From positions 1-46,407 of the forward strand of contig JACQZV010000072.1 in NCBI GenBank assembly GCA_016213695.1: a stretch of DNA of 46,407 nt. The letters are read 5' to 3'. Each line of letters begins with the position of its first letter. The first letter of the stretch is position 1. A model generated the notes under the pieces. The model saw only the letters and a list, made by a program, of their open reading frames with translations, did not search any database and was not told the DNA's origin. Made by a program: the position numbers and the translations under genes. The stretch is from Acidobacteriota bacterium. Its GTDB lineage: Bacteria > Acidobacteriota > Vicinamibacteria > Vicinamibacterales > UBA2999. Positions 2,531-45,076 of the stretch are shown here, piece after piece.

Positions 2531-2617
2531 CACGGGCAGAAGGCCCGCGCGACAGGTGGCGCCCGGTCGTCCGATGGCGTAGGCTTCAGGGGCCGCGCCT
2601 GCTGCCAAACCTGGGTC

Positions 2618-5042: not shown

Positions 5043-5105
5043 CCGCCGGGCGGGGCACTTTGGTTCCATGGACCTCGGGCCGTCACGCGCGTAGCCTCTC
5101 CGTGC

Positions 5106-6170
5106 TTGGCGGCCTTCGGTGCGGTGCCTCGGCGTCCGGTTCTCCTCCTCGCATGCGCGACCCTCGCGGCATCCATGGCCTGCGGCACGCGCGAACTGCA
5201 ATCCCCGACGAGCGCCAGCGCGCTTCCCGGCGCTGGGGGGCCGGCTCGGTCGGAGACTGACGAGCCGGATCCCGGCGAGGTGGAGGCACGGCTGCGGTCG
5301 GAGCCGGAGGACACCGAGGACGGCAGCACACGGGTGCCCGGGGGCCAGGCCGGCGCACGCGCGGTCCTGATTGGCGCGGGCGATCTCGCCCAGTGCGGCC
5401 TCGAAGGAGTGGTGCAGACGGGTCTGCTGATGGACAAGCTCCTGAGGCAGGAGTCCGACCCGACGCTCGTCACGTTCGGCGACAATTCCAACGACAACGG
5501 CAGCCGGCAGCGCTACGAGTGCTTCGACCGGTGGTGGGGGCGGTTCAGGTCGAGCATCTGGCCGTCGCCCGGCAATCACGACTACGAGACGGACCCCGCC
5601 AGCCCGTACTACTACGAATACTTTCCGCACGCCGGGACGCCCGGGCGCGGCTACTACTCATACGACCGCGGCAGCTGGCACATCGTCGTCCTCAACAGCG
5701 AGCTCGCCGAGGCGAGCCGGCCGGCGCAGATCGTCTGGCTCGAGACCGATCTCCGGACGCATCCGTCAGAGTGCACGCTCGCGTACTTCCACCGGCCGTA
5801 CCTCTCGTCGGGCGAGTTTGCGGCGTTCCGCATGAAGCGGGTCTGGGACGTGCTGTATCGCTACGGGGTGGATGTCGTCGCCAACGGGCACGAACATTTC
5901 TACGCCGCATTTCCACCGATGGCTCCCGACGGGACGCGGGACGGGCGGTTCGGCATCCGGCAGATCATCGCCGGTACCGGCGGCGCGAGGCTGTTTGCCG
6001 CGCCCGTGCCGGCGTACGGCGAGCGGATCGTCAGCCAGTCGTGGGGGTTGCTGAAGCTCACGCTCGAGTCCGACCGCTATGCGTGGGACTTCGTCTCGGT
6101 GAACGAAGCGGTGCTCGACCACGGCGAGGACCGCTGCCACGGCCGTCCGCCCGCCGGGATCGCCTTCTAA
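5106..6170 (+). CDS. Exported metallophosphoesterase (calcineurin-like), probable lipoprotein
   Basis: The protein has 354 residues if translated from the TTG at 5106, or 348 from the GTG at 5124; neither has a clear ribosome-binding site. The N-terminus is arginine-rich, then VLLLACATLAASMAC, a plausible lipobox with Cys26. The two-metal phosphoesterase motifs follow in order: GAGDLAQC (Asp93, with Gln where many members have His), TFGDNSND (Asp126, Asn127), SPGNHDYE (Asn157-His158-Asp159) and VVANGHEHFY near the C-terminus. The aromatic-rich spacing resembles purple-acid-phosphatase-like secreted esterases. It probably hydrolyses phosphate mono- or diesters outside the cytoplasm; the substrate is unknown. 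A dispersed repeat follows the stop codon. Confidence 0.82.
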   Translation: MAAFGAVPRRPVLLLACATLAASMACGTRELQSPTSASALPGAGGPARSETDEPDPGEVEARLRSEPEDTEDGSTRVPGGQAGARAVLIGAGDLAQCGLEGVVQTGLLMDKLLRQESDPTLVTFGDNSNDNGSRQRYECFDRWWGRFRSSIWPSPGNHDYETDPASPYYYEYFPHAGTPGRGYYSYDRGSWHIVVLNSELAEASRPAQIVWLETDLRTHPSECTLAYFHRPYLSSGEFAAFRMKRVWDVLYRYGVDVVANGHEHFYAAFPPMAPDGTRDGRFGIRQIIAGTGGARLFAAPVPAYGERIVSQSWGLLKLTLESDRYAWDFVSVNEAVLDHGEDRCHGRPPAGIAF

Positions 6171-6181
6171 CGCGGTTCGCA

Positions 6182-6345
6182 GGTTGCCCTGGTGCTCAGG
6201 CGCCCGGGTTCCGGTTCGTGGGTTCTCAGGTACTCGGTTCAACGCCGGCGTCGGCGACCGTCGACGTGCCGGAGCACCACGAACCGAAGCAACCTGTGAA
6301 CCGGCACCTCAGCACCGAAGCACCGAAGCAACCCGAGAACCGCTC
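6182..6345. repeat. Dispersed intergenic repeat, copy 1, with an inverted partner
   Basis: Positions 6182-6279 align without gaps to 34814-34911. The first 76 bp differ at about 10 places, and GGTTCAACGCCGGCGTCG is identical in both. After this core, 6284-6345 carries related sequence in the opposite orientation (pieces such as GAACCGAAGCAACC and CCCGAGAACC). It includes three octamers of the form AGCACCGA/AGCAACCC at 6311-6334. The whole spacer can therefore fold back on itself. It fills the gap between two convergent genes. No transposase is present. Confidence 0.75.
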
Positions 6346-6366
6346 TACATCAGCACGCGTTCGGGA

Positions 6367-7083
6367 TCAGGGGACCAGCCGATAGAGGCGCTCGTCGTAC
6401 GGGGCGCCGTCGACGGCCTGCTCGCGCAGCCCCTCGCGATAGCTGCGGGTGCGCGTTGCCGTCAGGTGCGCGTCGCGGGCGCCGTCGTCGCGCCACGCTT
6501 CGAGCACCGTGTAGTGGTTCTGGCGCGCACCCTGCAGAATGTCGAAACGAAGGTTGCCCGCCTCGCCGCGGCTCGCCGGCGCCTGCGACCGCAGCATCTC
6601 CCGCGCTTTGTCGAGGCCTGGAGGCGTGATGTCGATGTGCGTGGCGACGAGCACGGCCCCGCCTGAGGGAACAGACGAGGGCGCGCCGACGGCGAACGAC
6701 GTGTGAACCCGCTCGTCGTACGAGCTGATGCGGAGCGGGCCGAACTTCTCATGGAACTGTGCGACGTGCGCCGCCTCGCGATGGGCCTTGCGCGACGCTT
6801 CGTCCTGCCACTGCTCGACGATGACGAAATGGCCGCGCACGCCGTTCTGCTGCCAGATCTGCGAGTCGGCGTTGCCGTGGTCGCGCCGGGCGGCGTCGCG
6901 GTAGCCCTTGAGCAGCGCCAGCGCCTGCGCTTCGGAGGCGGGCACGACATCCACGTACGTGACGACGAACCGCGGTCCTGCCGGTTCGGCGGCGGGCGCC
7001 GTCTGACCGGCTGCCGGTCCTCCGGCTCCAGCGAGGGAAGCGGCGAACACGGCGAGCACTCCGACCAGATGGCGTCTCTGCAT
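6367..7083 (-). CDS. Exported protein with two antibiotic-biosynthesis-monooxygenase (ABM)-like domains
   Basis: The protein has 238 residues and starts at the ATG at 7083, which has GAGG 6 nt upstream; an ATG at 7089 and a TTG at 7095 are alternatives. A signal peptide (LVGVLAVFAASLAGAGGPAA) is followed by two dimeric alpha/beta-barrel-like repeats. Each has the ABM pattern of a starting strand (RFVVTYVDVVP; VLVATHIDITP), a helix, and a strand ending in an aromatic (FVIVEQWQDEAS; YTVLEAWRDDGA). ABM proteins include small quinol monooxygenases and haem-degrading enzymes. An exported tandem form is less usual, and I cannot assign a substrate. It is convergent with the metallophosphoesterase and separated from it by the dispersed repeat. 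Confidence 0.8.
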   Translation of the reverse strand: MQRRHLVGVLAVFAASLAGAGGPAAGQTAPAAEPAGPRFVVTYVDVVPASEAQALALLKGYRDAARRDHGNADSQIWQQNGVRGHFVIVEQWQDEASRKAHREAAHVAQFHEKFGPLRISSYDERVHTSFAVGAPSSVPSGGAVLVATHIDITPPGLDKAREMLRSQAPASRGEAGNLRFDILQGARQNHYTVLEAWRDDGARDAHLTATRTRSYREGLREQAVDGAPYDERLYRLVP

Positions 7084-26356: not shown

Positions 26357-26857
26357 CTACTTGGCGACGACGCTGAACCGTTTCGAGCCGAGCGGCGCGC
26401 TGCCGCGCGACACGGTGACGTTCACGGTCCACGTGCCCGCCATCGACAGCTGACCGGTTCCGCGATAGACGCCGCCGCCCGCGTGTGTCAGCGGCGCGTC
26501 GCTCCGCATCGCCGGCATGTTCATCGCCGGCATCGCCGGCATCGTGAACACGGTGGCGACGGTGGCGTCGGTTATCGGCGAGCCGTCGGGCTGCCTGACG
26601 GTCACCTCAATCGTGTTCGGCCCGAGATGCGGCGGATCCGGTTCGTTCCGGTACTGGATGTCGAGCCCCGGCGCGGCCGCGTCGCCGGGCTGAGCCGCCG
26701 GAGCCGGCTGCGGCGCGGGCACGGCGCCGCCAGGGGCCGGCGTGTCGCTGCCGCCGCCGCACGCCGCTCCCGCGGCGCAGGCCACGGCAAGTACGAACAC
26801 CGCCGCCGTCCGGCTGAAGCCGGACACGACGTCAAGACAAACCCGCTGCGCGTTCAT
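26357..26857 (-). CDS. FixH/YtkA-like lipoprotein
   Basis: The protein has 166 residues. The N-terminus is unusual: MNAQRVCLDVVSGFSRT is encoded by a REP-like palindrome, followed by AAVFVLAVACAAGAAC with a lipobox Cys33. A proline/alanine-rich linker (about 40-65) precedes an Ig-like beta-sandwich: NTIEVTVRQPDGSPITDATV, a Met-rich stretch FTMPAMPAMNMPAM, and YRGTGQLSMAGTWTVNVTV. YtkA/FixH-like domains often accompany copper proteins, and the methionine cluster would suit Cu(I) binding (inference). The ATG overlaps the stop of the RND pump gene by one base, so the two are translated together. Confidence 0.8.
   Translation of the reverse strand: MNAQRVCLDVVSGFSRTAAVFVLAVACAAGAACGGGSDTPAPGGAVPAPQPAPAAQPGDAAAPGLDIQYRNEPDPPHLGPNTIEVTVRQPDGSPITDATVATVFTMPAMPAMNMPAMRSDAPLTHAGGGVYRGTGQLSMAGTWTVNVTVSRGSAPLGSKRFSVVAK
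26805..26833. repeat. REP-like palindrome inside the lipoprotein signal peptide
   Basis: GTCCGGCT (26808-26815), GA, AGCCGGAC (26818-26825) is a perfect 8-bp inverted repeat with a 2-nt centre. On the minus strand it encodes VSGFSRT; on the plus strand it would read VRLKPDTT. From memory I recognise these as recurring peptides in acidobacterial genomes, where the same palindrome is scattered; I could not check this here. Confidence 0.7.
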
Positions 26858-29800
26858 CACATCTGTTCTCCCGCCGCGAACGTGGGCGCCTGCCGGACGC
26901 CGAAGCGCTCGGGCCACCGCCGCCGGATGTCGTCGCCAATCGCAAACAGACACGGAATCATGAAGAGCACGTACAGGGTCGAACTGATCATACCGCCGAG
27001 CGTCGGCGTGGCAATCGGCTGCGTGATATCCATGCCCGATCCGCTCGAGAACATGATGGGAAGCAGGCCGAAGACGGTCGTCGCCACTGTCATCAGCTTC
27101 GGCCGCAGCCGCGCGACCGACCCCTGGACGACGGCGTCCATGTACGACTGATCGGGCGTGCGGTGCGCCAGCGCCTCGCGGATGAACTCGATCATGATGA
27201 TGCCGGTCTGGATGGCCACCGCGAAGAGCGACACGTAGCCGATGATCACCGCGGTCGTCATGGAGAAGCCGCGTTCCCACTGCAGGAACACGCCGCCGAC
27301 CAGCGCCAGCGGCGCCGAGAGCATGATGAGCGCGCTGTCGGCGAGCGACCGGAACGCCATCATGAGCAGCGCGAACATGATGACCAGGGTGATCGGCACC
27401 ACGACACCGAGCTTCGCGCGGGCGTCCTCGGCGTACTGATACAGGCCGGTCCACTCGACGGAATAGCCGGCGGGCACCTGGAGCTTCGCCTGCAGGTACT
27501 GGCGCGCGCGATCGACGTACTCGGGCGCGGTGACGTCGTGGAGGAACACGTAGACATAGCCGGCAAGCTCGCCGTTGTCGTTGCGGATCATCTCGGGCGC
27601 TTCGCGGACGCTGACGTCGGCGATGTCGTCGAGCGGCACCGAGCGTCCGTCGGCGGTGAGCACCGGCGTGTGGCGCACCTTTTCCAGCGTGTCGATGTAT
27701 TCCGGCGAGTACTGGACCGCCAGCGGCACCACCGTCTTGTCGGGCTCCCGGATGCCCATCACGTTGTCGCCGCCAATCGCGAACCGCACGGTGGGCAGCG
27801 CCTCGTCAACCGCGACGCCCTGCGTCGCCATCCGCTCGAGATCGAGCTGCGCGTCCACGAAATAACCCTGCGAGATGCGCTCGGCGATCACCGACTGCGT
27901 GCCGGGCACGTCGCGCAGCAGCCCTTCGATCTTCTGGGCGATCTCCTGCACGGTGGCGAGGTCCTTGCCCTTGACCTTGATGCCGACCGGCGTCTGGATG
28001 CCGGTGTCCTGCATGACGACGCGGGTGCTGATCGGCTGGCTCCAGCTGTTGACATAGCCGACAATCTGCATCGCGTCGTTCATCTCGGCGATGAGCCTGT
28101 CCTTCGTCATCCCCTCGCGCCACGCCGTGCGCGGCTTCAGCATGACGGTCGTCTCGATCATCTCCACCGGCGCCGGGTCGGTGGCGGAGTCGGCCCGCCC
28201 GAGCTTCCCGAAGACGCGCTCCACTTCGGGAAACGCCTTCAGCTTCCGGTCCATCTGCTGGAGGATCCATCCCGCCTCACGCGAGGGGAGCCCCGGCAGC
28301 GTCGTCGGCATGTAGAGGATCGATCCCTCCTCCATGTCGGGCATGTAGTCCTTCTGGAAGCCGGTCATCAGCACGACCGCCACCATCAGGACCACGGCGC
28401 TGGCCCCGACAAAGGCGTAGCGATAGCGGATGGTACCGAGGAGCGCGCGGCGGTACGCCCGCACGAACACGCTTTCACGCTCGTCACCGCGCCGCCAGAC
28501 GTCGCGCTTGAAGATCCAGACGATCACCACCGGCAGGAGGAACAGCGTCAGCAGCGTCGAGAACGCCATGGCCGCCGTCTTGCCGAACGCCAGCGGGTTG
28601 AACAGCCGCCCTTCGCGCTGGCCGAGGAAGAAGATCGGCAGAAACGACGTCACGATGATGAGCATCGAGAAGAGCAACGGCCGGGTCATCGCGGCGGTGG
28701 AGCTGACGATCATCCGCCTCTTCTCGGCGGCGCTGAGGTTCGGGTGCTTCGCCAGCCGCGACGTGCAGTTCTCGACGATGACGATCGTCGCGTCCGCCAT
28801 CTCGCCGATCGCGATCGCCAGCCCCGCGAGCGAAAACAGGTTGATGGTCTGGCCGAAGGCCGCCAGCGGGAGCGCGGAGAAGAGCGTGCCGAGCAGCAGC
28901 ACGCAGACGGGCGCGACGGCCGCCCGGAGGCTTCGCAGCGCCACCGCGATGACGACGATGACGACGATGAGCTCGTAGACAAGCGCCTGGAAGAAGTTCG
29001 TCAGCGTGTCCCAGATGAGGGTGGATCGGTTGTAGGTCGGTACGATCTCGATCCCCTCGGGGAGCGATGGCCGCAGGTCGTCCACCCTCTGCAGCAGGCC
29101 GCGCGTCACGGCGAGCACATTGCGCCCCTGCTCCATGACGGCGATGCCGCCCACCACTTCGCCGGCGCCGTCAAGGTCGGCGATGCCGCGGCGGAGGTCG
29201 TAGCCGATCTGCACGTAGCCGACGTCCTTGAGCTGCACCGGCCGGCCGCTCCGGTCGCGGCCGAGCACGAGGAACTCGAGCTTGTCGATGCTCTGCGTGC
29301 CCACCCCGCCGCGCAGCTGGTCTTCGCGGTTGGTCACCTCGATCGTGCGGCCGCCGGCCTCCTGAAAGGCGCCCTGCAGCGCGGCCAGCACGTGCTGGAG
29401 CGAGAGGCCCCGGTCGGCGAGCAGCGGCGGAAACAGCTTCAGCTGGTACTGCTTCTCGAGCCCGCCGACCGAGGCGACCTCCGCGACGCCGGGCGACGCC
29501 TGCAGCGCCGGCTTGACCAGGCTCTCGTTGAGGAGCCGCAGCTCGCGCAGGTCGCGGGTATTCTGCCGGTCGAGGAGCGCGTACTGGAAGATCCAGCCCA
29601 TGCTGCTGGCGTTGGGTCCGATCGCGACGTTGGCGTCGGCGGGCAGTTGCGACCGGACGGCGGCGAGGCGGTCGGCGAGGTACTGCCGCACGGCGGCGCG
29701 CCGGTCGGGGTTCTCGAGGATGACGTAGACGAACGAGTACCCCATGTGCGAGGTGCCGCGGATCGTCTGGATGTCGGGCGACCCCGCCAGCGCCCGGATC

Positions 29801-30003
29801 ACCGGCTCGGTGACCTCGGTTTCGATCACCTGCGGGCTGCGCGGCCACTTCGTGTAGATGATGATCTGGGGGTCGGAAATGTCGGGAATGGCGTCGAGCG
29901 ACGCGGTGCGGAGCGCGTAGGCGCTGAGCGTCACCAGGGCCGCCACCGCGGCCCAGACGAGCCAGCGGAACCGGATGACGTGTTCGATGATCGCCGTGAT
30001 CAC
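26857..30003 (-). CDS. Heavy-metal RND efflux pump, CusA/CzcA type
   Basis: The protein has 1048 residues, full length for the HME-RND family: 12 membrane helices and two large periplasmic loops. It begins MITAIIEHVIRFRWLVWAAV, then SLDAIPDISDPQIIIYTKWP, a hallmark of CusA-like pumps. IAIGEMADATIVIVENC is the helix-4 proton-relay region. MEEGSILYMPTTLPG and VVMQDTGIQTPVGIKVKG resemble the Cu/Ag subclass more than the Zn/Co/Cd subclass. It probably exports Cu(I) or Ag(I) using the proton gradient (metal choice is inference). The GTG start at 30003 lies 4 nt after the adaptor stop. No CusC/TolC-like gene is in the operon. Confidence 0.93.
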   Translation of the reverse strand: MITAIIEHVIRFRWLVWAAVAALVTLSAYALRTASLDAIPDISDPQIIIYTKWPRSPQVIETEVTEPVIRALAGSPDIQTIRGTSHMGYSFVYVILENPDRRAAVRQYLADRLAAVRSQLPADANVAIGPNASSMGWIFQYALLDRQNTRDLRELRLLNESLVKPALQASPGVAEVASVGGLEKQYQLKLFPPLLADRGLSLQHVLAALQGAFQEAGGRTIEVTNREDQLRGGVGTQSIDKLEFLVLGRDRSGRPVQLKDVGYVQIGYDLRRGIADLDGAGEVVGGIAVMEQGRNVLAVTRGLLQRVDDLRPSLPEGIEIVPTYNRSTLIWDTLTNFFQALVYELIVVIVVIAVALRSLRAAVAPVCVLLLGTLFSALPLAAFGQTINLFSLAGLAIAIGEMADATIVIVENCTSRLAKHPNLSAAEKRRMIVSSTAAMTRPLLFSMLIIVTSFLPIFFLGQREGRLFNPLAFGKTAAMAFSTLLTLFLLPVVIVWIFKRDVWRRGDERESVFVRAYRRALLGTIRYRYAFVGASAVVLMVAVVLMTGFQKDYMPDMEEGSILYMPTTLPGLPSREAGWILQQMDRKLKAFPEVERVFGKLGRADSATDPAPVEMIETTVMLKPRTAWREGMTKDRLIAEMNDAMQIVGYVNSWSQPISTRVVMQDTGIQTPVGIKVKGKDLATVQEIAQKIEGLLRDVPGTQSVIAERISQGYFVDAQLDLERMATQGVAVDEALPTVRFAIGGDNVMGIREPDKTVVPLAVQYSPEYIDTLEKVRHTPVLTADGRSVPLDDIADVSVREAPEMIRNDNGELAGYVYVFLHDVTAPEYVDRARQYLQAKLQVPAGYSVEWTGLYQYAEDARAKLGVVVPITLVIMFALLMMAFRSLADSALIMLSAPLALVGGVFLQWERGFSMTTAVIIGYVSLFAVAIQTGIIMIEFIREALAHRTPDQSYMDAVVQGSVARLRPKLMTVATTVFGLLPIMFSSGSGMDITQPIATPTLGGMISSTLYVLFMIPCLFAIGDDIRRRWPERFGVRQAPTFAAGEQM

Positions 30004-30007
30004 GACG

Positions 30008-30652
30008 TCAGGATCCCTTGAGTTTGTGCTCGGCGTCGATGAAAAAGCTGCCGATCGTCACGACGTGCTCCCCGGCGGTGAGGCCCCCGAGGACCTGGGT
30101 GAAAAGCTCGCCCTGGACGCCGATCCTGATTTCCCTCGGCGTATAGGAGCTGTCCGGCTGCTGGACGTAGACCAGACGCCTGTCGCCGGTCTCGATGATC
30201 GCCTCGTTCGGGACCGACAGGAAGTCGCCCTGGTCGGTGACGATCTCCAGGATATACCGCGCGCTGTTTTCGTGGCCGGGGCCGATGAGCGTGGCGGTCA
30301 CCGTCACGCGCCCGTCGCGCTGTGCCACGCCGGTCACGCGTGCCTGGTACATCCTCGACCGCGACTCCGGTGAAAACGCGCGGACGCGCTGGCCGACCGA
30401 GAGGCGCGCGCCTTCGGCCGGCCCCACGAACGCCGTCACCTGCTTCCGCGAGGCGTCGATCAGCCCGGCCGCCCGCACCCACACCTGAATCGGCCGCACG
30501 GCCGCGTCGGTCAGCGTGAGCGTCAGCTCGCCCGCCTGCGACTCGGTCACGGCGGTCGAGCGGTTGGGTGTCGGCCGCGTGTGGTCGCGGACGCCCTGCG
30601 CGCGAGCCGGCCCCGATGCGGCGACGAGCAGAACAAGGACGAGGACGCGCAC
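30008..30652 (-). CDS. Miniature RND periplasmic adaptor (CusB/HlyD-like), lacking the hairpin
   Basis: The protein has 214 residues, about half the usual 380-450. A signal peptide (VRVLVLVLLVAASGPARAQ) is followed by TLTLTDAAVRPIQVWVRAAG, which resembles the membrane-proximal strand of adaptors. Next comes VGPAEGARLSVGQRVRAF, a half-lipoyl-like piece, a beta-barrel region (VTVTATLIGPGHENSARY), FLSVPNEAIIETGDRRLVYV and a C-terminal GGLTAGEHVVTIGSFFIDAE like that of CusB. The coiled-coil hairpin and flanking lipoyl halves that reach TolC are missing. I see no frameshift, so the short form looks native. The start is the GTG at 30652, 5 nt after the propeller stop. Confidence 0.8.
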   Translation of the reverse strand: MRVLVLVLLVAASGPARAQGVRDHTRPTPNRSTAVTESQAGELTLTLTDAAVRPIQVWVRAAGLIDASRKQVTAFVGPAEGARLSVGQRVRAFSPESRSRMYQARVTGVAQRDGRVTVTATLIGPGHENSARYILEIVTDQGDFLSVPNEAIIETGDRRLVYVQQPDSSYTPREIRIGVQGELFTQVLGGLTAGEHVVTIGSFFIDAEHKLKGS

Positions 30653-30657
30653 CGGGC

Positions 30658-31842
30658 TCAATGGCAGTAGTTGTCCTTGCTGTCCATGATGTGGGTGCCC
30701 CAGGGATACAGTCCCACGCTGCGGACCCGTTCGATGGCGTTGGTCCTGGCGTTGATGATGACAACCTCGTGGTTGGTCGATTCCGCCAGATAGATGTTCT
30801 CTTCCGCCGTATCGGTGGTCGCGGTTTCGATCTGGATGTTCGTCCCGATCTTGAGGCGGCCGGCCGGCTTGAGCGACTTCATGTCGTAAATGTAGACGAA
30901 CCCCGGCGCGCTGATGACGAACGCCTTGCCCTGGGCGAAGTTGACGCCCGTCATATTCTCGCCAGCTTCGAGCGTCGCCGCCACCTTGTTGGCCGCCGTG
31001 TCGATCACGGAAATCGTCTGGTCGCCGTTGTTGACCGTCACCGCGTACTTGCCGTCGTGGCTCATGTAGGCGCGCCACGGTCCGGCGCCCACCCGGATGA
31101 CCTTCACCACCTTGTCGTCGCGCGTGTCGACGACGCTGACCACGCCGAGGTCGCTGTCGGCGGCATACAGGTAACGGCCGTCATTGGTGATCGTCGCGTT
31201 CGACACGCCGTTGATCTCGCCGAGGTATTTCTCGGGGTCGAGCTTCGCGACGCCCGGCACCTCGGCGACCTGGATCTTCTTCAGCAGCTCGTGGCGCCGC
31301 ACGTCGATGACGCCGATCCAGTGGCCTCCGTAATTGCCGACGTAGGCCTTCGCGCCGTCGGGCGTGAACGTCACGTTCAGCGGCTCGGCGAAGCCCGGGA
31401 TCGTCTTGATCTTGGTCAGCGACTGCATGTCGATGACCGAGATCGAATCCCCGTCCGGGTTCCCCTGGTAGTACCACCGGCCGTCGGGCGAGAAGGCGAG
31501 GTGCTCGGGGGCGATGTCCACGGGGATGGTCTTGACGAGCTGCAGCGTCCGCGTGTCGATGATGTAGGCCTTGTTCGCCCGCGTGCCGCCCGTCACGACG
31601 TAGCGGCCGTCGGGCGACATCATCACCATGTGCGGGTTCACGTTGTTGCCGAGGAACGTCCGGCCGACGATCTTGTGCGACTTGATGTCCATGAACGCGA
31701 TGTCGTTCGAGTCGCGGTTGACGATCATGACCACGGTGGTCGGGTCGGCAATCTTGACGTCCTGGGCGGCAGCACCGATGACGGACGCGCCCGCGACGGC
31801 GATGAGCCCGGCGGTTCGGATGAGGTTTCGTGCGTTGACCAT
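30658..31842 (-). CDS. Exported YVTN-type beta-propeller protein
   Basis: The protein has 394 residues. A signal peptide (LIRTAGLIAVAGASVIGAAAQ) is followed by about seven blades with recurring 40-residue patterns such as VNPHMVMMSPDGRYVVTGG, PEHLAFSPDGRWYYQGN, LNVTFTPDGAKAYVGN and NATITNDGRYLYAAD. These are like surface YVTN repeats and the d1-haem propeller of nitrite reductases, but no haem ligand set is obvious. It ends DSKDNYCH, an unusual Cys-His terminus. It is likely a periplasmic scaffold or binding protein. The operon ties it to the metal pump. AGGAG precedes the ATG, and the porin stop is 17 nt upstream. Confidence 0.85.
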   Translation of the reverse strand: MVNARNLIRTAGLIAVAGASVIGAAAQDVKIADPTTVVMIVNRDSNDIAFMDIKSHKIVGRTFLGNNVNPHMVMMSPDGRYVVTGGTRANKAYIIDTRTLQLVKTIPVDIAPEHLAFSPDGRWYYQGNPDGDSISVIDMQSLTKIKTIPGFAEPLNVTFTPDGAKAYVGNYGGHWIGVIDVRRHELLKKIQVAEVPGVAKLDPEKYLGEINGVSNATITNDGRYLYAADSDLGVVSVVDTRDDKVVKVIRVGAGPWRAYMSHDGKYAVTVNNGDQTISVIDTAANKVAATLEAGENMTGVNFAQGKAFVISAPGFVYIYDMKSLKPAGRLKIGTNIQIETATTDTAEENIYLAESTNHEVVIINARTNAIERVRSVGLYPWGTHIMDSKDNYCH

Positions 31843-31859
31843 GACTCCTGCTCCTCGCG

Positions 31860-33491
31860 TTAGAAGGCGGCCTGCAGCCGGACGCCCGGCAGCAGATACC
31901 CGAACCGGTTCCCGGCGCCGGGCCCTTCCAGCACGTGCTGGAGGTGCAGCGACAGCCGCAGCTTATCGGTGAGATGGAAATTGTAGTAGCCCTCGGCGAG
32001 CTTTTCGTTGGGCCCCGAGGCGCGCGCCACCTGCGCGTAGCCGACGCCCCACGTGTCCTGCGGGCTGAAGATCAGCCCGCTCTGAAAGCCGACGCCGGCC
32101 GCGTAGAACGTGTCGCGGTCGCCGCCGTCCACTTCCTGCGTGCCGTAGCGGCCGAACAGGCCGACGATGGCGGTGAGCTTCTGGTCGGCGCTGACACCGG
32201 CCGCCCGGCGAAGGTCGGGCGCGGTGTTGTCGGTGCGGAACCAGCCGCGGTACGTCCCTTCGGGCAGCGCGAAGGGCGTGAAGGTGTAGCCGACTTCCGA
32301 CAGCGTGTACATCGAATTGGAGAGATTGGTGGCGTCGGTGTTGCTCTGCTGCAGTCCGAACTTCAGCCGGAAGCCGGTTTTCGCATCGTACTCGGCCGCG
32401 AGGCCGGTGCCGTTCACCGCGAGGCCGAGCATCTGGTTGTTGACGAGCGCGTCGCTGATGAACTGCGTGCTCTCGTCGTTGGCGAGCGCGTTCTGGTCGA
32501 AGTAGTTGGTGAGGTCGAGCCGCCCGGCCGTGAGCGCCAGCCGCTGGCTGAAGAGCTCGGTCCGCAGCCACGCCTCGCGCAGGTTCAGCTCGTTCTGACG
32601 CACCAGCCGCGCCGTATAGCCGTTGAGCAGCGTCATCGACCGAATCTCGGCGTCCGGCGGCGCGCCGCTCAACCCGACGATGTCGGCGAAGAACAACGTG
32701 TTCTGGGCGAGGCCCGCCGTGAAGAACAGGTCGGCCGATGCCAGTTGATAGGCGTGGCCGCCGGCCTCGCCGGCGTCGCCCCGGGTCTGGCGAGCCACCT
32801 GCGTCGCGATGGCGGCGTCGACGCCGACCCGCACGCTCCGGCTCGCGGCATCGTCGAGCGCCTGGGTCAGCTTCTCGTTGATCGTCTGCCGCCGGTAGAC
32901 ACGCTCCCGCTGGTAGGTGACGCGCGGCGTGGCGCCCTGCGCCGGCTCGTCGTGGACGTTGCCGTTTTCGTCGACATATACCTCGATACGGCGCACGCGC
33001 GTCTCGGGCTCCGAGAGCACCGCGCTCGATTCGAGATCGTTGATCCGCTGCTCCAGCGTGGCGATCCGTTCAAACAGCGTCTGCCGCTCGGTGTCCCCGA
33101 GCTGCGAGGCGCCGAGCGGATTGAGCGCGATGCTCACGTCGACGCTGCGGTCGGCGGCGACGTCCACGCCCGTGCGCCGGAACAACGTCAGGCCCGCGGC
33201 CTCGACCGTGATGTCGTAGGTGCCGACCGGGAGCGCTGCAAAAACATAACGGCCCTGGGCGTCGGTGACGGCGGTGAATCGCGCGGTCGTGTTCGCGTTG
33301 GCCGCCACCACCGCGACACCGGCCGCCGTCGTCGCGTCGGCGTTTCTCACTGCGCCAGCAAGGATGCCCCGGACGTCCGCCGGCATGTTGTGCGAGGCGG
33401 GATGCGCCGGTTCCTGGGCGGCGGCCTTTGCGGCCACCCCGCACGCCAGCGCGCCGTACATGATTCCGCGGACGAGCCAGTCTGTTCTCAC
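31860..33491 (-). CDS. Outer-membrane porin-like protein with N-terminal carboxypeptidase-regulatory-like domain
   Basis: The protein has 543 residues from the GTG at 33491, which has GGAGG 5 nt upstream; an in-frame ATG at 33506 would add five residues. The signal peptide ends near AAKAAAQ. Residues about 30-110 form a regulatory-like beta-sandwich (VRGILAGAVRNADATTAAG, GRYVFAALPVGTYDITVEAAG). A short coiled coil (LFERIATLEQRINDLES) follows, then a basic linker. From about 185 onward it is an OprB/OprP-like barrel (LASADLFFTAGLAQNTLFFAD, LTAGRLDLTNYFD, GYYNFHLTDKLRLSLHLQ), ending with Phe. It is the first gene of the metal-pump operon, where a TolC-like channel would be expected. Confidence 0.82.
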   Translation of the reverse strand: MRTDWLVRGIMYGALACGVAAKAAAQEPAHPASHNMPADVRGILAGAVRNADATTAAGVAVVAANANTTARFTAVTDAQGRYVFAALPVGTYDITVEAAGLTLFRRTGVDVAADRSVDVSIALNPLGASQLGDTERQTLFERIATLEQRINDLESSAVLSEPETRVRRIEVYVDENGNVHDEPAQGATPRVTYQRERVYRRQTINEKLTQALDDAASRSVRVGVDAAIATQVARQTRGDAGEAGGHAYQLASADLFFTAGLAQNTLFFADIVGLSGAPPDAEIRSMTLLNGYTARLVRQNELNLREAWLRTELFSQRLALTAGRLDLTNYFDQNALANDESTQFISDALVNNQMLGLAVNGTGLAAEYDAKTGFRLKFGLQQSNTDATNLSNSMYTLSEVGYTFTPFALPEGTYRGWFRTDNTAPDLRRAAGVSADQKLTAIVGLFGRYGTQEVDGGDRDTFYAAGVGFQSGLIFSPQDTWGVGYAQVARASGPNEKLAEGYYNFHLTDKLRLSLHLQHVLEGPGAGNRFGYLLPGVRLQAAF

Positions 33492-33561
33492 GCGTTCCTC
33501 CGTCATCGGCGGCGCCGGCGCCGATCCGCCCCGATCTTAGAAGGCGCCCGCGCTCGCGCAC

Positions 33562-33590
33562 CTGAAGAGTTCCTGAATCTTTTGTCAGGA
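33562..33590. promoter_or_regulatory. Candidate operator between the efflux operon and the cytochrome genes
   Basis: CTGAA occurs at 33562-33566 and 33573-33577, an 11-bp period typical of OmpR/PhoB-type sites. It overlaps an inverted repeat TCCTGA (33571-33576) and TCAGGA (33585-33590). The site lies about 70 bp upstream of the porin start and 60 bp upstream of the cytochrome start, so it could serve both. No regulator is encoded nearby. Confidence 0.35.
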
Positions 33591-33648
33591 AGATTGCGGG
33601 GCAAATCTGAGTAGGATTGAGGCGGTGCCGAAAGGAGAGGCCACGATC

Positions 33649-34197
33649 ATGCGAGTCCGCCACCGGCTCTCGGGAGTCATCTATTGCGCGGCGATCGGGA
33701 CGGTCCTGCTGGCGGGCGCGGCGGCGCAGACCGCGCCGACGCAGGGTCCGCGACGGGGAGGTCCGCCGCCCGCCGCGAGGGGCCGCGGCGCCGCGCCGCG
33801 CGTGCAGGGGACGCTCCTGCAGGTGATGCGCGGGATCCTGTACCCCGCCTCCAACGTGATCTTCGCGGCGCAGACCGACGATCCGGCGGCGATCAAGCCG
33901 GCGCCCGATCCGGCCACGTCGCCCAACCCGCTGACGAGCGCGTACGGCGGGTGGAACGCCGTGGAGAACAGCGGCATCGCGCTCGCCGAAGCCGCGAGCC
34001 TGCTCACGATTCCCGGGCGGATGTGTTCAAACGGCAGGCCCGCCCCGATCCAGAACGCCGACTGGCAGATGTGGGTGCAGGAGCTGCGCACGGCGGGGAT
34101 GGCCGCGTACAAGGCCGCGCAGGCGAAGAACCAGGACGCCATCCTCGACGCGGCCGGCGTCGTCACGGAGGCCTGCTCGCACTGCCACGACAGATAG
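33649..34197 (+). CDS. Exported monohaem cytochrome c'-like protein (copy 1)
   Basis: The protein has 182 residues. The signal peptide ends near AGAAAQ. A proline/glycine/arginine-rich linker (30-50) is followed by a helical domain with LLQVMRGILYPASNVIF, ALAEAASLLTIPGR and NADWQMWVQELRTAGMAAY. A single C-terminal haem site is CSHCH (Cys176-His180). A C-terminal CxxCH on a four-helix protein is the pattern of class II cytochromes c. It is likely a periplasmic electron carrier or gas/redox sensor. I chose the ATG at 33649 because GGAGAGG lies 8 nt upstream. It is divergent from the metal-pump operon. Confidence 0.82.
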   Translation: MRVRHRLSGVIYCAAIGTVLLAGAAAQTAPTQGPRRGGPPPAARGRGAAPRVQGTLLQVMRGILYPASNVIFAAQTDDPAAIKPAPDPATSPNPLTSAYGGWNAVENSGIALAEAASLLTIPGRMCSNGRPAPIQNADWQMWVQELRTAGMAAYKAAQAKNQDAILDAAGVVTEACSHCHDR

Positions 34198-34259
34198 CGG
34201 GAGGTGCCCGGCGGGGTGGCGAATCGGTGTTAAGGTATACGCCTCGCCGAGGAGGTTGC

Positions 34260-34802
34260 ATGGTCCGTTGCGGAGTCGTCGGGCGTCTGATCGTGATCGG
34301 AGTGCTGGTGCTCGCGTCGCGCGGGTCGGGTTTCGCGCAGGCGCCGGCGCCGGGTGGCGCGGCAGGGCAGCCGCGCATCTACGCCAACATGCTCTATGTG
34401 ATGCGCGGCATCTTATATCCCGCCTCGAACGTGATCTTCACCGTGCAGTCCGACGACCCGACGTCGTTCAAACCGGCGGCGCGACCGTCCACGTCGTCGG
34501 ACCCGCTGACGAGCGTGTACGGCGGATGGGACGCGGTCGGGAACGCCGGCTTCGCGCTGGCGGAGGCCGCCAATCTCCTCATCGTTCCCGGCCGCACCTG
34601 CTCGAACGGCCGCGTGGCTCCGGTGCAGAATGCCGACTGGCAGATGTTCGTGCAGGAAGTGCGTGACGCGGGGATGCAGGTCGTCAAGCTCGCGGAGAAA
34701 AAGGATTCCGACGCGATCCTCGACACGGCGCAACTGGTCGCTGACTCGTGCCTGCACTGCCATAACAAATACCGCAACAACGCGCGCGCGGGCCGCTGCT
34801 AG
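34260..34802 (+). CDS. Exported monohaem cytochrome c'-like protein (copy 2)
   Basis: The protein has 180 residues and is a clear paralogue of the preceding gene: MLYVMRGILYPASNVIF, YGGWDAVGNAGFALAEAANLL, GRTCSNGR and NADWQMFVQEVRDAGMQVV match block by block. The haem site is CLHCH (Cys164-His168), with a short basic tail ending RAGRC. The signal peptide is VIGVLVLASRGSGFAQ. GGAGG lies just before the ATG, and a GGTATAC -10-like element lies in the 62-bp gap, so it may have its own promoter. The shared GR(M/T)CSNGR loop is conserved for an unknown reason. Confidence 0.82.
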   Translation: MVRCGVVGRLIVIGVLVLASRGSGFAQAPAPGGAAGQPRIYANMLYVMRGILYPASNVIFTVQSDDPTSFKPAARPSTSSDPLTSVYGGWDAVGNAGFALAEAANLLIVPGRTCSNGRVAPVQNADWQMFVQEVRDAGMQVVKLAEKKDSDAILDTAQLVADSCLHCHNKYRNNARAGRC

Positions 34803-40463: not shown

Positions 40464-40859
40464 ATGGACGGCTGGCTTGGCGTCATCATCATGATCGCTC
40501 TCGGCGTCGGCTTCGCCGCGGTCATGATTGGACTCTCCCTCCTGCTCGGTCCCCACAATCCGACTCCGGAAAAGCTCGCGCCCTACGAATGCGGCATGCC
40601 CGCGGTGGGCAGCGCCCGCGAGCGCCACTCGGTGAAGTTCTACCTGGTGGCGATGATCTTTCTTCTCTTCGATATCGAGGTGGCCTTCCTGTATCCGTGG
40701 GCGGTCGCGCTGCGCGATCTCGGCTGGGCCGGCTTCGTTCAGCTCGTCACGTTCTTCCTGATCCTGTCGGTCGGCTACGTCTATGTGTGGCGCAAGGGGG
40801 TGCTCGACTGGGGCCCCGCGGCGCGGGCCGGGCGGCACGCCGCCCGCCGGGCGGCATAA
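40464..40859 (+). CDS. nuoA: NADH-quinone oxidoreductase subunit A
   Basis: The protein has 131 residues and three membrane helices, a membrane-arm subunit of complex I near the quinone site. Hallmarks are [16 protein letters not shown] with the loop cysteine, and [24 protein letters not shown] with the conserved acidic residues of helix 2. An alternative GTG at 40434 would add ten residues. A ribosome-binding site (GAGGG) supports the ATG at 40464. The Ala/Arg-rich C-terminal tail ([12 protein letters not shown]) is longer than typical. It starts a tightly packed operon. Confidence 0.95.
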
Positions 40860-40869
40860 GGCATCGCCA

Positions 40870-41355
40870 ATGGCGCCGTCCGATCCCCACCTGCACGGCC
40901 TCGACAGCGAGCTTCCGCTCATCACGACGACGGTCGAGCGGATCGTTCAGTGGGCGCGCCGGTCGGCCATCTGGCCGGCGCAGTTCGGGCTGGCCTGCTG
41001 CGCGATCGAGATGATGGCGATGGCGGCGAGCCGGTACGACATCGCGCGGTTCGGTGCCGAGGTGTTCCGCGGCTCGCCGCGCCAGTCGGACCTGATGATC
41101 GTGGCGGGGCGGCTGTCGCGGAAGATGGCGCCGGCCATGCGCCGCGTGTACGACCAGATGCCGGACCCGAAGTGGGTGATCTCGATGGGCGCCTGCGCCT
41201 CGGTCGGCGGCGTCTTCGACAACTACGCGATCGTCCAGGGCGTGGACCAGGTGGTGCCGGTGGACGTGTTCGTGCCGGGATGCCCGCCGCGGCCCGAGTC
41301 CCTCATCTACGGGATCGTCCAGCTGCAGCAGAAGATCGCGCGGTCGCGAGCCTAG
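40870..41355 (+). CDS. nuoB: NADH-quinone oxidoreductase subunit B
   Basis: The protein has 161 residues and carries cluster N2, the last iron-sulfur centre before quinone. The four cysteine ligands are present: Cys43-Cys44 ([10 protein letters not shown]), Cys109 ([10 protein letters not shown]) and Cys138 ([10 protein letters not shown]). [20 protein letters not shown] is also family-typical. In a normal complex I, N2 receives electrons from NuoI, whose gene is not found at its usual place in this cluster. It starts 10 nt after nuoA. Confidence 0.97.
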
Positions 41356-41367
41356 ACGCCTGACCCG

Positions 41368-41910
41368 ATGGATTCACACGGCATCATCGACACGCTGACG
41401 CGGCTCGTCCCGGGCGCGACCTACGACGCGGGCGCGAATGTCGATTTCGCCACGCTGTACGTGCCGGCCGCGCGCCTGGTCGACACCTGCCTCGCGCTGC
41501 GCGACACGCCGGCGCTGGGTTTCAACGTGCTCGTCGAAGTGACGGCCGCCGACTACTTGCCGCGCGATCCCCGCTTCGAGGTGGTCTACCACCTGCTGTC
41601 GATCCCCCACCGCCGGCGTCTCCGGCTGAAGGTGCGGACGACCGACGCGGCGTCGATTCCGACGGTCCAGGGCGTCTGGCCGTCGGCGGGGTGGCTCGAG
41701 CGCGAAGTCTGGGACATGTTCGGCGTCGTCTTCGACGGGCACCCCGACCTGCGGCGGCTGCTCATGCCGGAGGACTGGGAGGGACACCCGCAGCGCAAGG
41801 ACTACCCGGTGCAGATCCGCAAGGCGGCGCAGACCTACGAGCCGCTCGAGATCACGGAAGAGGAATTCAAGGCCAACCTCGAGAGGGACAGGCTCAAACG
41901 CACCCACTGA
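41368..41910 (+). CDS. nuoC: NADH-quinone oxidoreductase subunit C
   Basis: The protein has 180 residues, the 30-kDa peripheral-arm subunit. Seen segments are FEVVYHLLSIPHRRRLRLKV, VWPSAGWLEREVWDMFGVVF and HPDLRRLLMPEDWEGHPQRKDYP, the 30-kDa signature. It is separate from nuoD rather than fused. A 12-nt gap follows nuoB. The C-terminus (EITEEEFKANLERDRLK) is charged. Confidence 0.97.
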   Translation: MDSHGIIDTLTRLVPGATYDAGANVDFATLYVPAARLVDTCLALRDTPALGFNVLVEVTAADYLPRDPRFEVVYHLLSIPHRRRLRLKVRTTDAASIPTVQGVWPSAGWLEREVWDMFGVVFDGHPDLRRLLMPEDWEGHPQRKDYPVQIRKAAQTYEPLEITEEEFKANLERDRLKRTH

Positions 41911-41923
41911 CGGCCGGGAGACG

Positions 41924-43105
41924 ATGGCAGAGCTTCGCACCGAGACGATGACGGTCAACATGGGGCCCCAGCACCCCAGCACGCACGGCGTGCTGCGCCT
42001 CGTGCTGGAGCTCGACGGGGAAGTGATCCGCTCGGCGCAACCGACGATCGGCTACCTGCACACCGGGATCGAGAAGACGGCCGAGCAGAAGAAATGGCAG
42101 CAGGTGGTCCCGCTCGTCGAGCGGATGGACTACCTCGGCGCCCAGTCGAACAGCCTGGCGTACGTGCTGTGCGTGGAGAAGCTGCTGGGGCTCGAGGTTC
42201 CGCAGCGCGTCAGGGACATCCGCGTGCTCATCGCCGAGCTGCAGCGTATGTCGAGCCATCTGATCTGGCTGGGCACGCACGCGATGGAAATCGGCGCCGT
42301 CTCGATGCTCTTTTACGCCATCCGCGAGCGGGAGCTGCTGCTGAACATCAACGAGCTGCTCGCCGGCTTCCGCTTCTTTCCGAGCTACCTCCGCGTCGGC
42401 GGGCTGCGCGAGGATCTGCCGCGAGGGTTTCACGAGGCGGTCACCGCGTTCCTCGACCGCTTCCCGGCGAAGATCGACGAGTACGAAGGGCTGCTCAGCG
42501 GGAACGACATGTTCCTGCGCCGCACGAAAGGCGTCGGGGTGATCGCGCAGGATGACGCGCTGGCGTGGGGGCTGCTCGGGCCGATCGCGCGCGGGTCGGG
42601 GTGCGGCTACGACGTGCGCCGGTACTTCCCGTACTCGGGCTACGAGACCTACGACTTCGACGTGCCGACCGAGACCGACGGCGATGTGTACGCCCGGTAC
42701 CGGGTGCGGATGCGCGAGTTGCGGGAGTGCGTGAAGATCTGCCGCCAGGCGCTCGCCCGGATTCCGCCGACCGGCGCCTGGGCCTGCGACGACCCGCGCG
42801 TGGTGCCCCCGCCCAAGGACAAGGTGTACACGGAGATGGAGGCGCTCATCCAGCACTTCCTGATCTATTCGCAGGGCTTCACGGTGCCGGCCGGCGACGC
42901 GTACGTGCCGGTGGAAGGGCCGCGCGGCGAGCACGGCGTCTATGCGGTGTCGGACGGCACGAACCGCCCGTGGCGCGTCAAGATGCGCGCGCCGTCGTTT
43001 CTCGCGATTCAGGCGCTGCCGACGCTGATTCGGAACGGCCTCATTGCAGACGTCGTCGCCGTCATCGGATCGACCGACGTTGTCATGGGAGACTGCGACC
43101 GGTGA
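41924..43105 (+). CDS. nuoD: NADH-quinone oxidoreductase subunit D
   Basis: The protein has 393 residues, the 49-kDa subunit that with NuoB and NuoH forms the quinone pocket. Hallmarks are MTVNMGPQHPSTHGVLRLVL with the quinone-gating His, TIGYLHTGIEK, MSSHLIWLG, FRFFPSYLRVGGLREDLP and the C-terminal STDVVMGDCDR. It descends from NiFe-hydrogenase large subunits but lacks their metal cysteines, as expected. It overlaps nuoE by 4 nt (GTGA). Confidence 0.97.
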   Translation: MAELRTETMTVNMGPQHPSTHGVLRLVLELDGEVIRSAQPTIGYLHTGIEKTAEQKKWQQVVPLVERMDYLGAQSNSLAYVLCVEKLLGLEVPQRVRDIRVLIAELQRMSSHLIWLGTHAMEIGAVSMLFYAIRERELLLNINELLAGFRFFPSYLRVGGLREDLPRGFHEAVTAFLDRFPAKIDEYEGLLSGNDMFLRRTKGVGVIAQDDALAWGLLGPIARGSGCGYDVRRYFPYSGYETYDFDVPTETDGDVYARYRVRMRELRECVKICRQALARIPPTGAWACDDPRVVPPPKDKVYTEMEALIQHFLIYSQGFTVPAGDAYVPVEGPRGEHGVYAVSDGTNRPWRVKMRAPSFLAIQALPTLIRNGLIADVVAVIGSTDVVMGDCDR

Positions 43106-43764
43106 GCTTTCACCCTCGAATGGAGTACGCGCCGGCGGCGTTCCACGCGTCGACGCGCGCGCTGCCGGAGGAAGGCAGTCCCTTCGCCTTCACCCCGGAG
43201 AACCAGGCGAAGTTCGATGCCAACGTCGCGCGGTACCCGCCCGAACAGCGGAAGTCGGCCATCCTCTACGCGCTGTACCTGGCGCAGGGGCAGCAGGGGT
43301 ACCTGACGCGCGCGGCCATGCGCCACGTCGCCCTGCAGATCGGCTGCACCGCGGCGGAGGTCGAAGACGTCGTCTCGTATTACACGATGTTCTTCACGAA
43401 GCCGGTCGGCCGGTACGTGTTGAACGTCTGCCGCACGCTCTCGTGCGCGCTCGTCGGCGCCGAGCGCGTCACCGAGGCGCTCGGCGACGCGCTGGGGATC
43501 AAGCCGGGCGAAACGGATCCGACCGGCACCTTCACGCTGATCGAGGTCGAGTGCCTGGGTGCGTGCGACCGCGCGCCCGTGGTGATGGTCAACGACGGAT
43601 GGCAGGAGCGGCTGTCGCCCGAGCAGGTGTCGCAGTTTCTCGAGGCGCTGCGCGCGCGCGGCGAGGCCGCGTTGAGCGGGTGCCATCTGCGGAGGGAGAA
43701 GCAGGCAGTGGGCAGTCGGCAGTCGGCAGTCGGCAGTGGGCAGCCGGCGGTGGGTGGTGACTGA
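43102..43764 (+). CDS. nuoE: NADH-quinone oxidoreductase subunit E with a repeat-encoded C-terminal tail
   Basis: The protein has 220 residues, longer than the typical 160-180. It carries the [2Fe-2S] cluster N1a: Cys110 and Cys115 (LNVCRTLSCALVG), Cys151 and Cys155 (VECLGACDRAP). VEDVVSYYTMFFTKPVG is family-typical. The GTG at 43102 overlaps the nuoD stop; an ATG at 43120 is an alternative start. From about residue 202 to the end, the tail QAVGSRQSAVGSGQPAVGGD is encoded by the heptamer array and is unrelated to other NuoE proteins. Only one base separates the stop from nuoF. Confidence 0.95.
   Translation: MSFHPRMEYAPAAFHASTRALPEEGSPFAFTPENQAKFDANVARYPPEQRKSAILYALYLAQGQQGYLTRAAMRHVALQIGCTAAEVEDVVSYYTMFFTKPVGRYVLNVCRTLSCALVGAERVTEALGDALGIKPGETDPTGTFTLIEVECLGACDRAPVVMVNDGWQERLSPEQVSQFLEALRARGEAALSGCHLRREKQAVGSRQSAVGSGQPAVGGD
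43706..43754. repeat. Heptamer tandem array within the 3' end of nuoE
   Basis: Seven 7-mers are CAGTGGG, CAGTCGG, CAGTCGG, CAGTCGG, CAGTGGG, CAGCCGG and CGGTGGG. They belong to the same family as the arrays at 13404 and 38763. Here the array is translated, so its 7-nt period gives a 7-residue peptide period. Confidence 0.92.
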
Positions 43765-43765
43765 C

Positions 43766-45076
43766 ATGGCATACGAGCCGGTTCTCACCACGTTCGTGAC
43801 CGAGCCGAATTCCCATACGCTCGACTTCTACGTGTCGCGACGACGCGGCTACGAGGGACTCCGCAAGGCCCTCACGCTCAAGCCGAACGACATCATCGAG
43901 CAGGTCAAGGCGTCGGGGCTGCGCGGCCGCGGCGGCGCGGGGTTTCCGACCGGCCTGAAGTGGCAGTTCGTCCTCAAGGACACGCCGAAGCCGAAGTACC
44001 TCTGCTGCAACGCCGACGAGAGCGAGCCGGGCACGTTCAAGGACCACGTGCTGATGGAGCGGAATCCGCACCTGCTGATTGAAGGGTGCGCGATCGCCTG
44101 CTACGCGATCGGCGCGAAGGTCGCCTACATCTACATCCGCGGCGAGTTCTACCACGTGCAGCAGATCCTCGAGGCCGAGATCGAGAAGGCCTACGCGGCG
44201 GGCTATCTGGGCCGGAACATTCTCGGGAGCGGGTTTGACTGCGACGTGTACGTGCACCGCGGCGCCGGGGCCTACGAGGCGGGCGAGGAGACGGCGCTCA
44301 TCGAGTCGCTCGAGGGCAAGCGCGCCCAGCCGCGCATCAAGCCGCCGTTCCCGGCCGTGTCGGGCCTCTATCAGTGCCCGACGGCGGTCAATAACGTCGA
44401 GACGCTCTGCAACGTCCCGCTCATCGTGCTGCACGGCGCGGACTGGTTCACCGCCCTCGGACCGGAGAAGAACGGGGGGCCGAAGCTGTTCTGCATCAGC
44501 GGCCATGTGAAGCGGCCGGGCGTCTACGAAGCGTCGATGCACACCACGCTGCGCGAGCTCATCGACGACCACGCGGGCGGCATGATCGACGACCGCCCGC
44601 TCAAGGCGATCATTCCGGGCGGGTCGTCGGTGCCGCTGCTGCTGCCCGACCAGCTCGACACGCCGGCGAGCTTCGATCACGTGCAGAAGGCGGGGTCGCT
44701 GCTCGGATCGGCGGGGCTCATCGTGATGAACGACACGGTCTGCATGGTGTGGCTCGCGATGAACCTGCTGCACTTCTACCGCCACGAGTCGTGCGGCAAG
44801 TGCACGCCGTGCCGCGAGGGGTCCGACTGGCTCTACCGGCTGCTGGCGCGCATCGAAGCCGGCGAGGGGCAGCCGAAGGATCTCGACCTGCTCTTCGGCG
44901 TCTCGAACAACATCGTCGGCAAGACGCTCTGTGCGTTTGGCGACGCCGCCGCGACGCCGGTGCTGACGACGATGAAGCTGTTCCGGCACGAGTACGAGGC
45001 GCACGTGCGCGAAGGACGGTGCACGCTGCCGGCCGGGTGGCGCGCGAGCCGTCCCGTCTTCGCGGGGGCGCACTGA
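43766..45076 (+). CDS. nuoF: NADH-quinone oxidoreductase subunit F
   Basis: The protein has 436 residues and binds NADH and FMN and the first [4Fe-4S] cluster (N3). The NADH loop is GLRGRGGAGFPTGLKW and the FMN segment CCNADESEPGTFKD. The cluster ligands are Cys343, Cys346 and Cys349 (SCGKCTPCREG) and Cys389 (LCAFGDAA). It is full length. In a standard cluster nuoG would follow to pass electrons on, but here the stop overlaps the start of nuoH by one base. The frame is open slightly upstream of 43766 only through the repeat region. Confidence 0.97.
   Translation: MAYEPVLTTFVTEPNSHTLDFYVSRRRGYEGLRKALTLKPNDIIEQVKASGLRGRGGAGFPTGLKWQFVLKDTPKPKYLCCNADESEPGTFKDHVLMERNPHLLIEGCAIACYAIGAKVAYIYIRGEFYHVQQILEAEIEKAYAAGYLGRNILGSGFDCDVYVHRGAGAYEAGEETALIESLEGKRAQPRIKPPFPAVSGLYQCPTAVNNVETLCNVPLIVLHGADWFTALGPEKNGGPKLFCISGHVKRPGVYEASMHTTLRELIDDHAGGMIDDRPLKAIIPGGSSVPLLLPDQLDTPASFDHVQKAGSLLGSAGLIVMNDTVCMVWLAMNLLHFYRHESCGKCTPCREGSDWLYRLLARIEAGEGQPKDLDLLFGVSNNIVGKTLCAFGDAAATPVLTTMKLFRHEYEAHVREGRCTLPAGWRASRPVFAGAH

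Follow-up and report, generated by a model that had tools for sequence, protein, structure and literature searches.

What might an RND pump do when its operon holds a half-size adaptor, a porin and an exported beta-propeller, and no TolC gene? RND pumps are textbook exporters, which reach the outside of the cell through TolC. The question is raised by an operon in the window, i.e. the whole 46,407-nt stretch of acidobacterial DNA that was analysed.

Gene organization of the operon

The preliminary description of this DNA had recognized five tightly packed genes, and the gene calls on the minus strand confirmed this arrangement: successive genes are separated by 17, 5 and 4 nt, and the last two overlap by 1 nt. 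The operon spans positions 26357-33506; the end originally given (33491) lies 15 nt short of the porin start (33506). Its genes are as follows:

31860-33506, minus strand: outer-membrane porin, 548 aa (CarboxypepD_reg and OprB)
30658-31842, minus strand: exported beta-propeller, 394 aa, 17-nt gap to the porin (PF02239, AlphaFold2)
30008-30652, minus strand: half-size periplasmic adaptor, 214 aa, GTG start, 5-nt gap (match to the C-terminal half of CusB)
26857-30003, minus strand: CusA-like RND pump, 1048 aa, GTG start, 4-nt gap (TIGR00914)
26357-26857, minus strand: YtkA/FixH-like, methionine-rich lipoprotein, 166 aa, 1-nt overlap with the pump (YtkA)

The porin is made of a signal peptide, an Ig-like CarboxypepD_reg domain (residues 49-128; 53 bits, cut-off 32), a predicted helix (139-161) and an OprB-like barrel, which gave a weak OprB match (30.5 bits, cut-off 22.9). 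The lipoprotein matched YtkA with 70.8 bits (cut-off 25.9).

Distribution and conservation of the gene set

A propeller-based scan of GTDB contigs yielded 35 loci in Acidobacteria and Gamma-, Alpha- and Betaproteobacteria; two are alphaproteobacterial bins and one is a Dechloromonas, the rest belonging to Acidobacteria and Gammaproteobacteria. The porin stands before the propeller in all 35 loci, and wherever the contigs extend far enough the short adaptor (33/33) and the pump (30/30) are present as well, with the order reversed in L051, where the pump lies ahead of the adaptor. No TolC gene was found between or directly beside the core genes, either in the window or in the cassettes of the 35 loci. 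The combination of porin, propeller and short adaptor in a cassette without TolC, which the preliminary description had proposed to look for across Acidobacteriota, therefore recurs, and it does so beyond this phylum too. The same description had named a lone truncation of the adaptor as the outcome that would overturn its view; the gene order is repeated in 35 public loci, and none of the homologous operons within the loci searched has an adaptor of normal length.

Among 297 sampled Acidobacteriota genomes, a full-length short adaptor was found in three (the window's own, G088 and G116), and a separate search with the propeller recovered exactly the same three. Nearly all other adaptor matches in these genomes are the ends of ordinary longer adaptors. 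The short adaptor of G144 (L031, 8079-8852) was rejected as a degenerate relic, as it joins a TolC-type start to a CusB-type end and has no adjoining pump. Plasmid matches from Methylobacterium, Croceicoccus and Methylosinus were also rejected, being full-length adaptors in ordinary copper operons.

The core of the system comprises four genes, encoding the porin, propeller, adaptor and pump. All five genes originally listed are present in the window, but neither the YtkA gene nor the regulatory-like domain of the porin belongs to the conserved system: the former occurs only in acidobacterial loci, and only in some of them, and the CarboxypepD_reg domain is not conserved across the family in a 33-member alignment. 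In L037 (10655-14212) and L047 (11081-14641) the pump continues in frame, through a hydrophobic segment, into a C-terminal YtkA domain, as if to tether a periplasmic domain to the pump. Because of this restricted occurrence and these fusions, we regard YtkA as an accessory.

It could be argued that the operon is a degenerate or opportunistic efflux set, which makes use of a TolC and a complete adaptor encoded by other loci and in which the porin and propeller are bystanders. A TolC homologue and a full-length adaptor encoded elsewhere and co-varying with this pump had been named beforehand as evidence against an unusual assembly. The genome does contain ordinary sets of TolC, adaptor and pump (C35, C77), but each of them has its own CusA-type pump. 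Three further loci (L049, L067 and L069) adjoin a complete tripartite set. However, the porin, propeller and adaptor are kept with the pump wherever the contig reaches, the propeller retains 67-88% identity across phyla, and the pumps form one clade (SH-aLRT 100, in a rapidly built tree that had few reference sequences and drew a long-branch warning). Borrowing of this kind is thus very improbable.

The half-size adaptor

Residues 65-206 of the adaptor resemble the C-terminal region of CzcB/CusB adaptors, in a match that falls short of the family cut-off (E 1e-14). In an hhalign comparison, residues 65-214 corresponded to residues 239-400 of E. coli CusB (probability 99.4%, E 4.8e-21), and no other stretch of CusB was aligned. 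Judged from its sequence, the adaptor is composed of the membrane-proximal and beta-barrel parts, and the stretch forming the lipoyl domain and hairpin of CusB is absent. The earlier statement that the hairpin is missing is supported by this comparison, and the lipoyl domain is gone as well. The retained part of CusB is the one which contacts CusA in known structures.

Complete adaptors among the loci are mostly 214-280 residues long. The adaptor of L063 (10168-11199) reaches 343 residues because a CopC domain, preceded by a Met/His-rich linker, is fused to its end; the copy in L037 contains an internal gap.

An RND adaptor without an alpha-hairpin has been described in Borrelia burgdorferi, namely BesA, in which the lipoyl domain is present and which has the TolC homologue BesC as its partner (PMC3807786). 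The window adaptor shares the lack of the alpha-hairpin with BesA. In contrast to BesA, which keeps the lipoyl domain and works with BesC, it has no lipoyl region and is encoded in an operon without a TolC gene. With no TolC of its own, a hairpin-less adaptor and a constant porin and propeller, the system is therefore not a standard tripartite pump, and the conservation of all these features bears out the proposal of an RND assembly of another kind.

The RND pump

The pump scored 830 bits against the CusA/CzcA model TIGR00914 (cut-off 701). Motifs were counted on 27 family pumps, using CusA numbering. The methionine triad M573/M623/M672 and D405 are invariant (27/27) and K984 is nearly so, which means that the Asp and Lys of the proton relay are retained in the window pump; two Czc-like control pumps have no such triad. 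The methionine relay of the membrane part has mostly been lost: M391 is missing from all 27 pumps, M410 and M501 from 26 of them, and M1009 is kept in 10, whereas complete CusA-like control pumps retain all four. Moreover, E939 and K678 are replaced by Gln in the family pumps that were checked. The pattern would fit a soft-metal site that receives its metal from the periplasm and has no relay from the cytoplasm.

The system thus resembles CusCFBA of E. coli in having a CusA/CzcA-family pump with the Met triad, D405 and K984, and an adaptor homologous to the C-terminal half of CusB. It differs from CusCFBA in that its core includes neither CusC/TolC nor CusF, its adaptor lacks the lipoyl and hairpin regions, its constant partners are a porin and a propeller, and in some lineages it is preceded by a B12 riboswitch.

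Two cysteines, C413 and C1018, are nearly invariant in the pump clade (26/27 and 23/23, respectively), and are absent from CusA and from two CusA-like pumps of the window's own genome.

Cobalamin riboswitches and B12-related neighbours

In L054, L056, L057, L060, L061, L066 and L068 the porin is preceded, on the coding strand, by a cobalamin riboswitch (Rfam RF00174), at a distance of 91-201 nt from the porin start; a copy clipped by the contig end precedes it in L059. The riboswitch stands before the porin in 8 of the 13 proteobacterial loci having upstream DNA, and as these genomes contain only one to five cobalamin riboswitches each, this placement is far beyond chance. In a tree of the propellers, the carriers belong to three separate lineages or more; the root of this tree on the Manganitrophus propeller, a very long branch, is unreliable. 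No RF00174 match precedes the operon in the proteobacterial loci L053, L055, L058, L063 and L071, in the window or in any acidobacterial locus. A riboswitch in the window had to be rejected, since nothing reached the gathering score and no Rfam match up to E 5 was obtained in 33300-33900. In the window's genome, cobalamin riboswitches are located before a TonB receptor accompanied by BtuF/BtuC-like genes and before BtuD/BtuC-like genes.

Several operons have B12-related neighbours: CbiX, CobB, CobO and CbtA in L056, CobB in L054 and L060, and CbtA downstream in L053. Furthermore, plasmids of Candidatus Manganitrophus carry a porin and a propeller (41% identity) but neither an adaptor nor a pump, directly behind a cobalamin biosynthesis operon and with a cobalamin riboswitch of their own:

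L073, 8631-11116: Candidatus Manganitrophus porin-propeller pair
L074, 7226-9497: Candidatus Manganitrophus porin-propeller pair, propeller split by a frame change

In the riboswitch-bearing gammaproteobacterial genomes, further cobalamin riboswitches stand before BtuB-like receptors, CobO/CobB and MetE, so the operon appears as an additional member of the regulon, and corrinoid uptake already has its own gene. CobN was detected in 7 of 25 and CbiC in 5 of 28 carrier genomes; the absences mean little, because most of these genomes are incomplete bins.

Genes known to be switched by B12 are those for its biosynthesis, B12 transport, cobalt transport or isozymes (PMC3766115), whereas cobalt efflux is normally regulated by the ion (PMC7689651). 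In B12-switched expression and in the neighbourhood of cob genes, the operon is similar to CbtAB, CbiMNQO and HupE, and CbtA itself lies near two of the operons. The catalogues of cobalamin-riboswitch and cobalt uptake genes that we searched name neither a porin nor a propeller nor an RND pump among the members of the B12 regulon, and no description of a cobalamin riboswitch combined with an RND pump and a porin or propeller was found in the open-access papers searched.

Some further features of these loci may be mentioned. In L053 a cyanase gene lies downstream of the operon, besides CbtA. A divergent LysR-type regulator adjoins the porin in L053 (275-1312) and L058 (1947-2996), both gammaproteobacterial and without a riboswitch. 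About 6.6 kb upstream of the acidobacterial operon of L048 there is a region (468-7032) in which a cobalamin riboswitch precedes the genes of a TonB receptor and of a membrane protein of the PepSY type. Another cobalamin riboswitch is located on L120 (1501-1885), about 150 nt from the end of a contig. This contig belongs to the same genome as L052, which starts 55 nt before the porin, and the two contigs may join.

The propeller and the porin

The propeller matched PF02239 (cytochrome d1 domain) with 66.3 bits (cut-off 25.5), and YncE and other propeller models were also above their cut-offs. It had been described as seven-bladed, but in our reading the strand order of the AlphaFold2 model (pLDDT 89) implies otherwise, and eight blades, closed by the C-terminal strand, are predicted. 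In a Foldseek search the heme-d1 propellers of NirS/NirN were among the best whole-length TM matches (0.71-0.76 by query length); the lowest E-value was that of an archaeal YVTN protein. In its predicted fold, and in matching PF02239 above the cut-off, the window protein thus resembles the heme-d1 propellers (NirS, NirN, NirF). On the other hand, the identity to NirS/NirN is only 15-18%, and the cytochrome c domain is absent.

Residues H71, M72, E113, H114, W256, R257 and W381 and the C-terminal NYCH motif (C393, H394) are invariant or nearly so, the Manganitrophus relative included. Most of them sit at the start of inner strands in the model, and they may therefore line one pocket. The AlphaFold2 model of the porin is weaker (pLDDT 75, pTM 0.55), with OprB (4gey) as its best Foldseek match (E 1e-12).

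The fold raises the question of whether the propeller might bind a corrinoid (cobalamin or cobinamide) itself, like BtuG or the d1-type propellers which bind heme d1. In Bacteroides, BtuG is a surface propeller which binds B12 and, as a lipoprotein, partners BtuB. Such corrinoid capture would agree with the closest fold, that of the tetrapyrrole-binding NirS/NirN propellers, with a weak DUF5074 match, with the B12 riboswitch and with the precedent of BtuG, likewise an exported propeller in the B12 regulon. However, the window propeller, which has a signal sequence with no visible lipobox, appears to be soluble and exported, is paired with a porin in an operon without a BtuB gene, has eight predicted blades, and did not give BtuG among its sequence matches or listed fold matches. 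Furthermore, riboswitch-controlled BtuB-like receptors are present in the same genomes, the Manganitrophus pair belongs to a biosynthesis operon, where the need is for cobalt, and a porin of the OprB type would normally be too narrow for B12. We therefore consider direct corrinoid capture distinctly unlikely.

The propeller might also be a copper enzyme resembling nitrous-oxide reductase, whose copper would be loaded by the RND part; as N2O destroys B12, such an enzyme would be produced under B12 shortage. A connection between N2O and B12 is known (PMC13059711), the pump is of copper type, and the lactonase-type L-NosZ model (NCBIfam NF052460) does give a match of 88 bits. Membership of L-NosZ was rejected, as this score is far below the 700-bit cut-off; the match falls in repeat regions, only a few His remain invariant once the Manganitrophus propeller is included, and the best fold matches are heme-d1 propellers. 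An enzyme of this kind is hardly credible.

Possible function of the system

We suggest, with a probability of about one half, that the four genes encode a cell-envelope system which acquires cobalt (or, less likely, a corrinoid) for B12 economy, and whose RND module does not use TolC. Gene composition, conservation, the truncation of the adaptor, the pump motif and the riboswitch position were computed; import as the purpose and cobalt as the substrate are our reading of them. The riboswitch operons of Proteobacteria and the pump-free Manganitrophus pair point to cobalt/B12 supply.

According to this proposal, the porin would admit the substrate into the periplasm, where the exported heme-d1-type propeller would capture it, and the pump and half-size adaptor would act either on this periplasmic pool or directly on the propeller. 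What remains of the adaptor is the part that in CusB touches CusA, whereas the lipoyl domain and hairpin, from which CusB builds the tube to TolC, are gone; discharge therefore probably takes place inside the periplasm, either onto the propeller or in the direction of the porin, rather than via a TolC duct. The pump might also dock on the porin by way of the propeller, as proposed earlier. In Proteobacteria, B12 would turn the operon off through the cobalamin riboswitch, and in Candidatus Manganitrophus the porin and propeller alone would be under such control.

A bolder version, which we consider unlikely, is that the pump and half-size adaptor power the uptake, proton-driven cycling via the adaptor and propeller acting on the porin to move cobalt or a corrinoid into the periplasm or the cell. 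RND transporters are not known to work as importers; if true, this would be a TonB-independent energised import and the first RND transporter for nutrient acquisition.

Several observations speak against cobalt. The triad present in all 27 pumps is a Cu(I)/Ag(I) one, and for the conserved His, Met and Cys residues of the propeller copper would be as suitable a ligand as cobalt. No riboswitch precedes the operon in the window, in the other acidobacterial loci or in five proteobacterial ones. Acidobacterial and alphaproteobacterial forms have copper-type parts, i.e. the YtkA lipoproteins, the CopC domain on the L063 adaptor and CusF beside L071, and copper therefore remains a serious rival. The system might handle periplasmic copper(I), with the pump passing Cu(I) to the propeller or expelling it through the porin, with YtkA, CopC and CusF as chaperones, and with the B12 control of some lineages as an indirect link. 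The YtkA-pump fusions, the copper-type neighbours in L065, the triad missing from Czc-like controls, and the invariant H71, M72, H114, C393 and H394 of the propeller would all fit. What this reading does not account for is the cobalamin riboswitch in at least three lineages, the cob and CbtA neighbours, the Manganitrophus porin and propeller in a B12 regulon without any pump, and the loss of most of the membrane Met relay of CusA. Copper handling is thus a tenable, if somewhat unlikely, explanation. The original assignment to copper or silver efflux is supported as far as the CusA-like metal triad is concerned, but not as the whole function, because the regulation in Proteobacteria and the pump-free pair tie the porin and propeller to cobalt/B12. 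The core may also serve different metals in different lineages.

Returning to cobalt acquisition, we have here a conserved RND set whose adaptor no longer has the half that forms the tube, which has acquired a porin and a propeller as fixed partners, and which is B12-switched in several Proteobacteria. If confirmed, the proposal would give the B12/cobalt regulon a member not recognised before, help explain the passage of cobalt across the outer membrane for B12 synthesis, and indicate that RND machinery can be turned to tasks other than efflux across the envelope. Thanks to the riboswitch, the function of the operon is directly testable.

Neighbouring genes in the window

A link to hydrogenase or nickel via a NuoB-like gene at 40783 was rejected, since it belongs to ordinary complex I genes (NuoB, C, D and F-like; 40783-45076, plus strand), which lie about 7 kb past the operon and are unrelated to it. 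Two small c-type cytochrome-like genes (33625-34197 and 34256-34802, plus strand) are divergent from the porin; both products have a CxxCH motif near the end, and the first is weakly cytochrome c'-like. Relatives of these genes are located near the operon in the acidobacterial loci L037, L041, L042 and L044.
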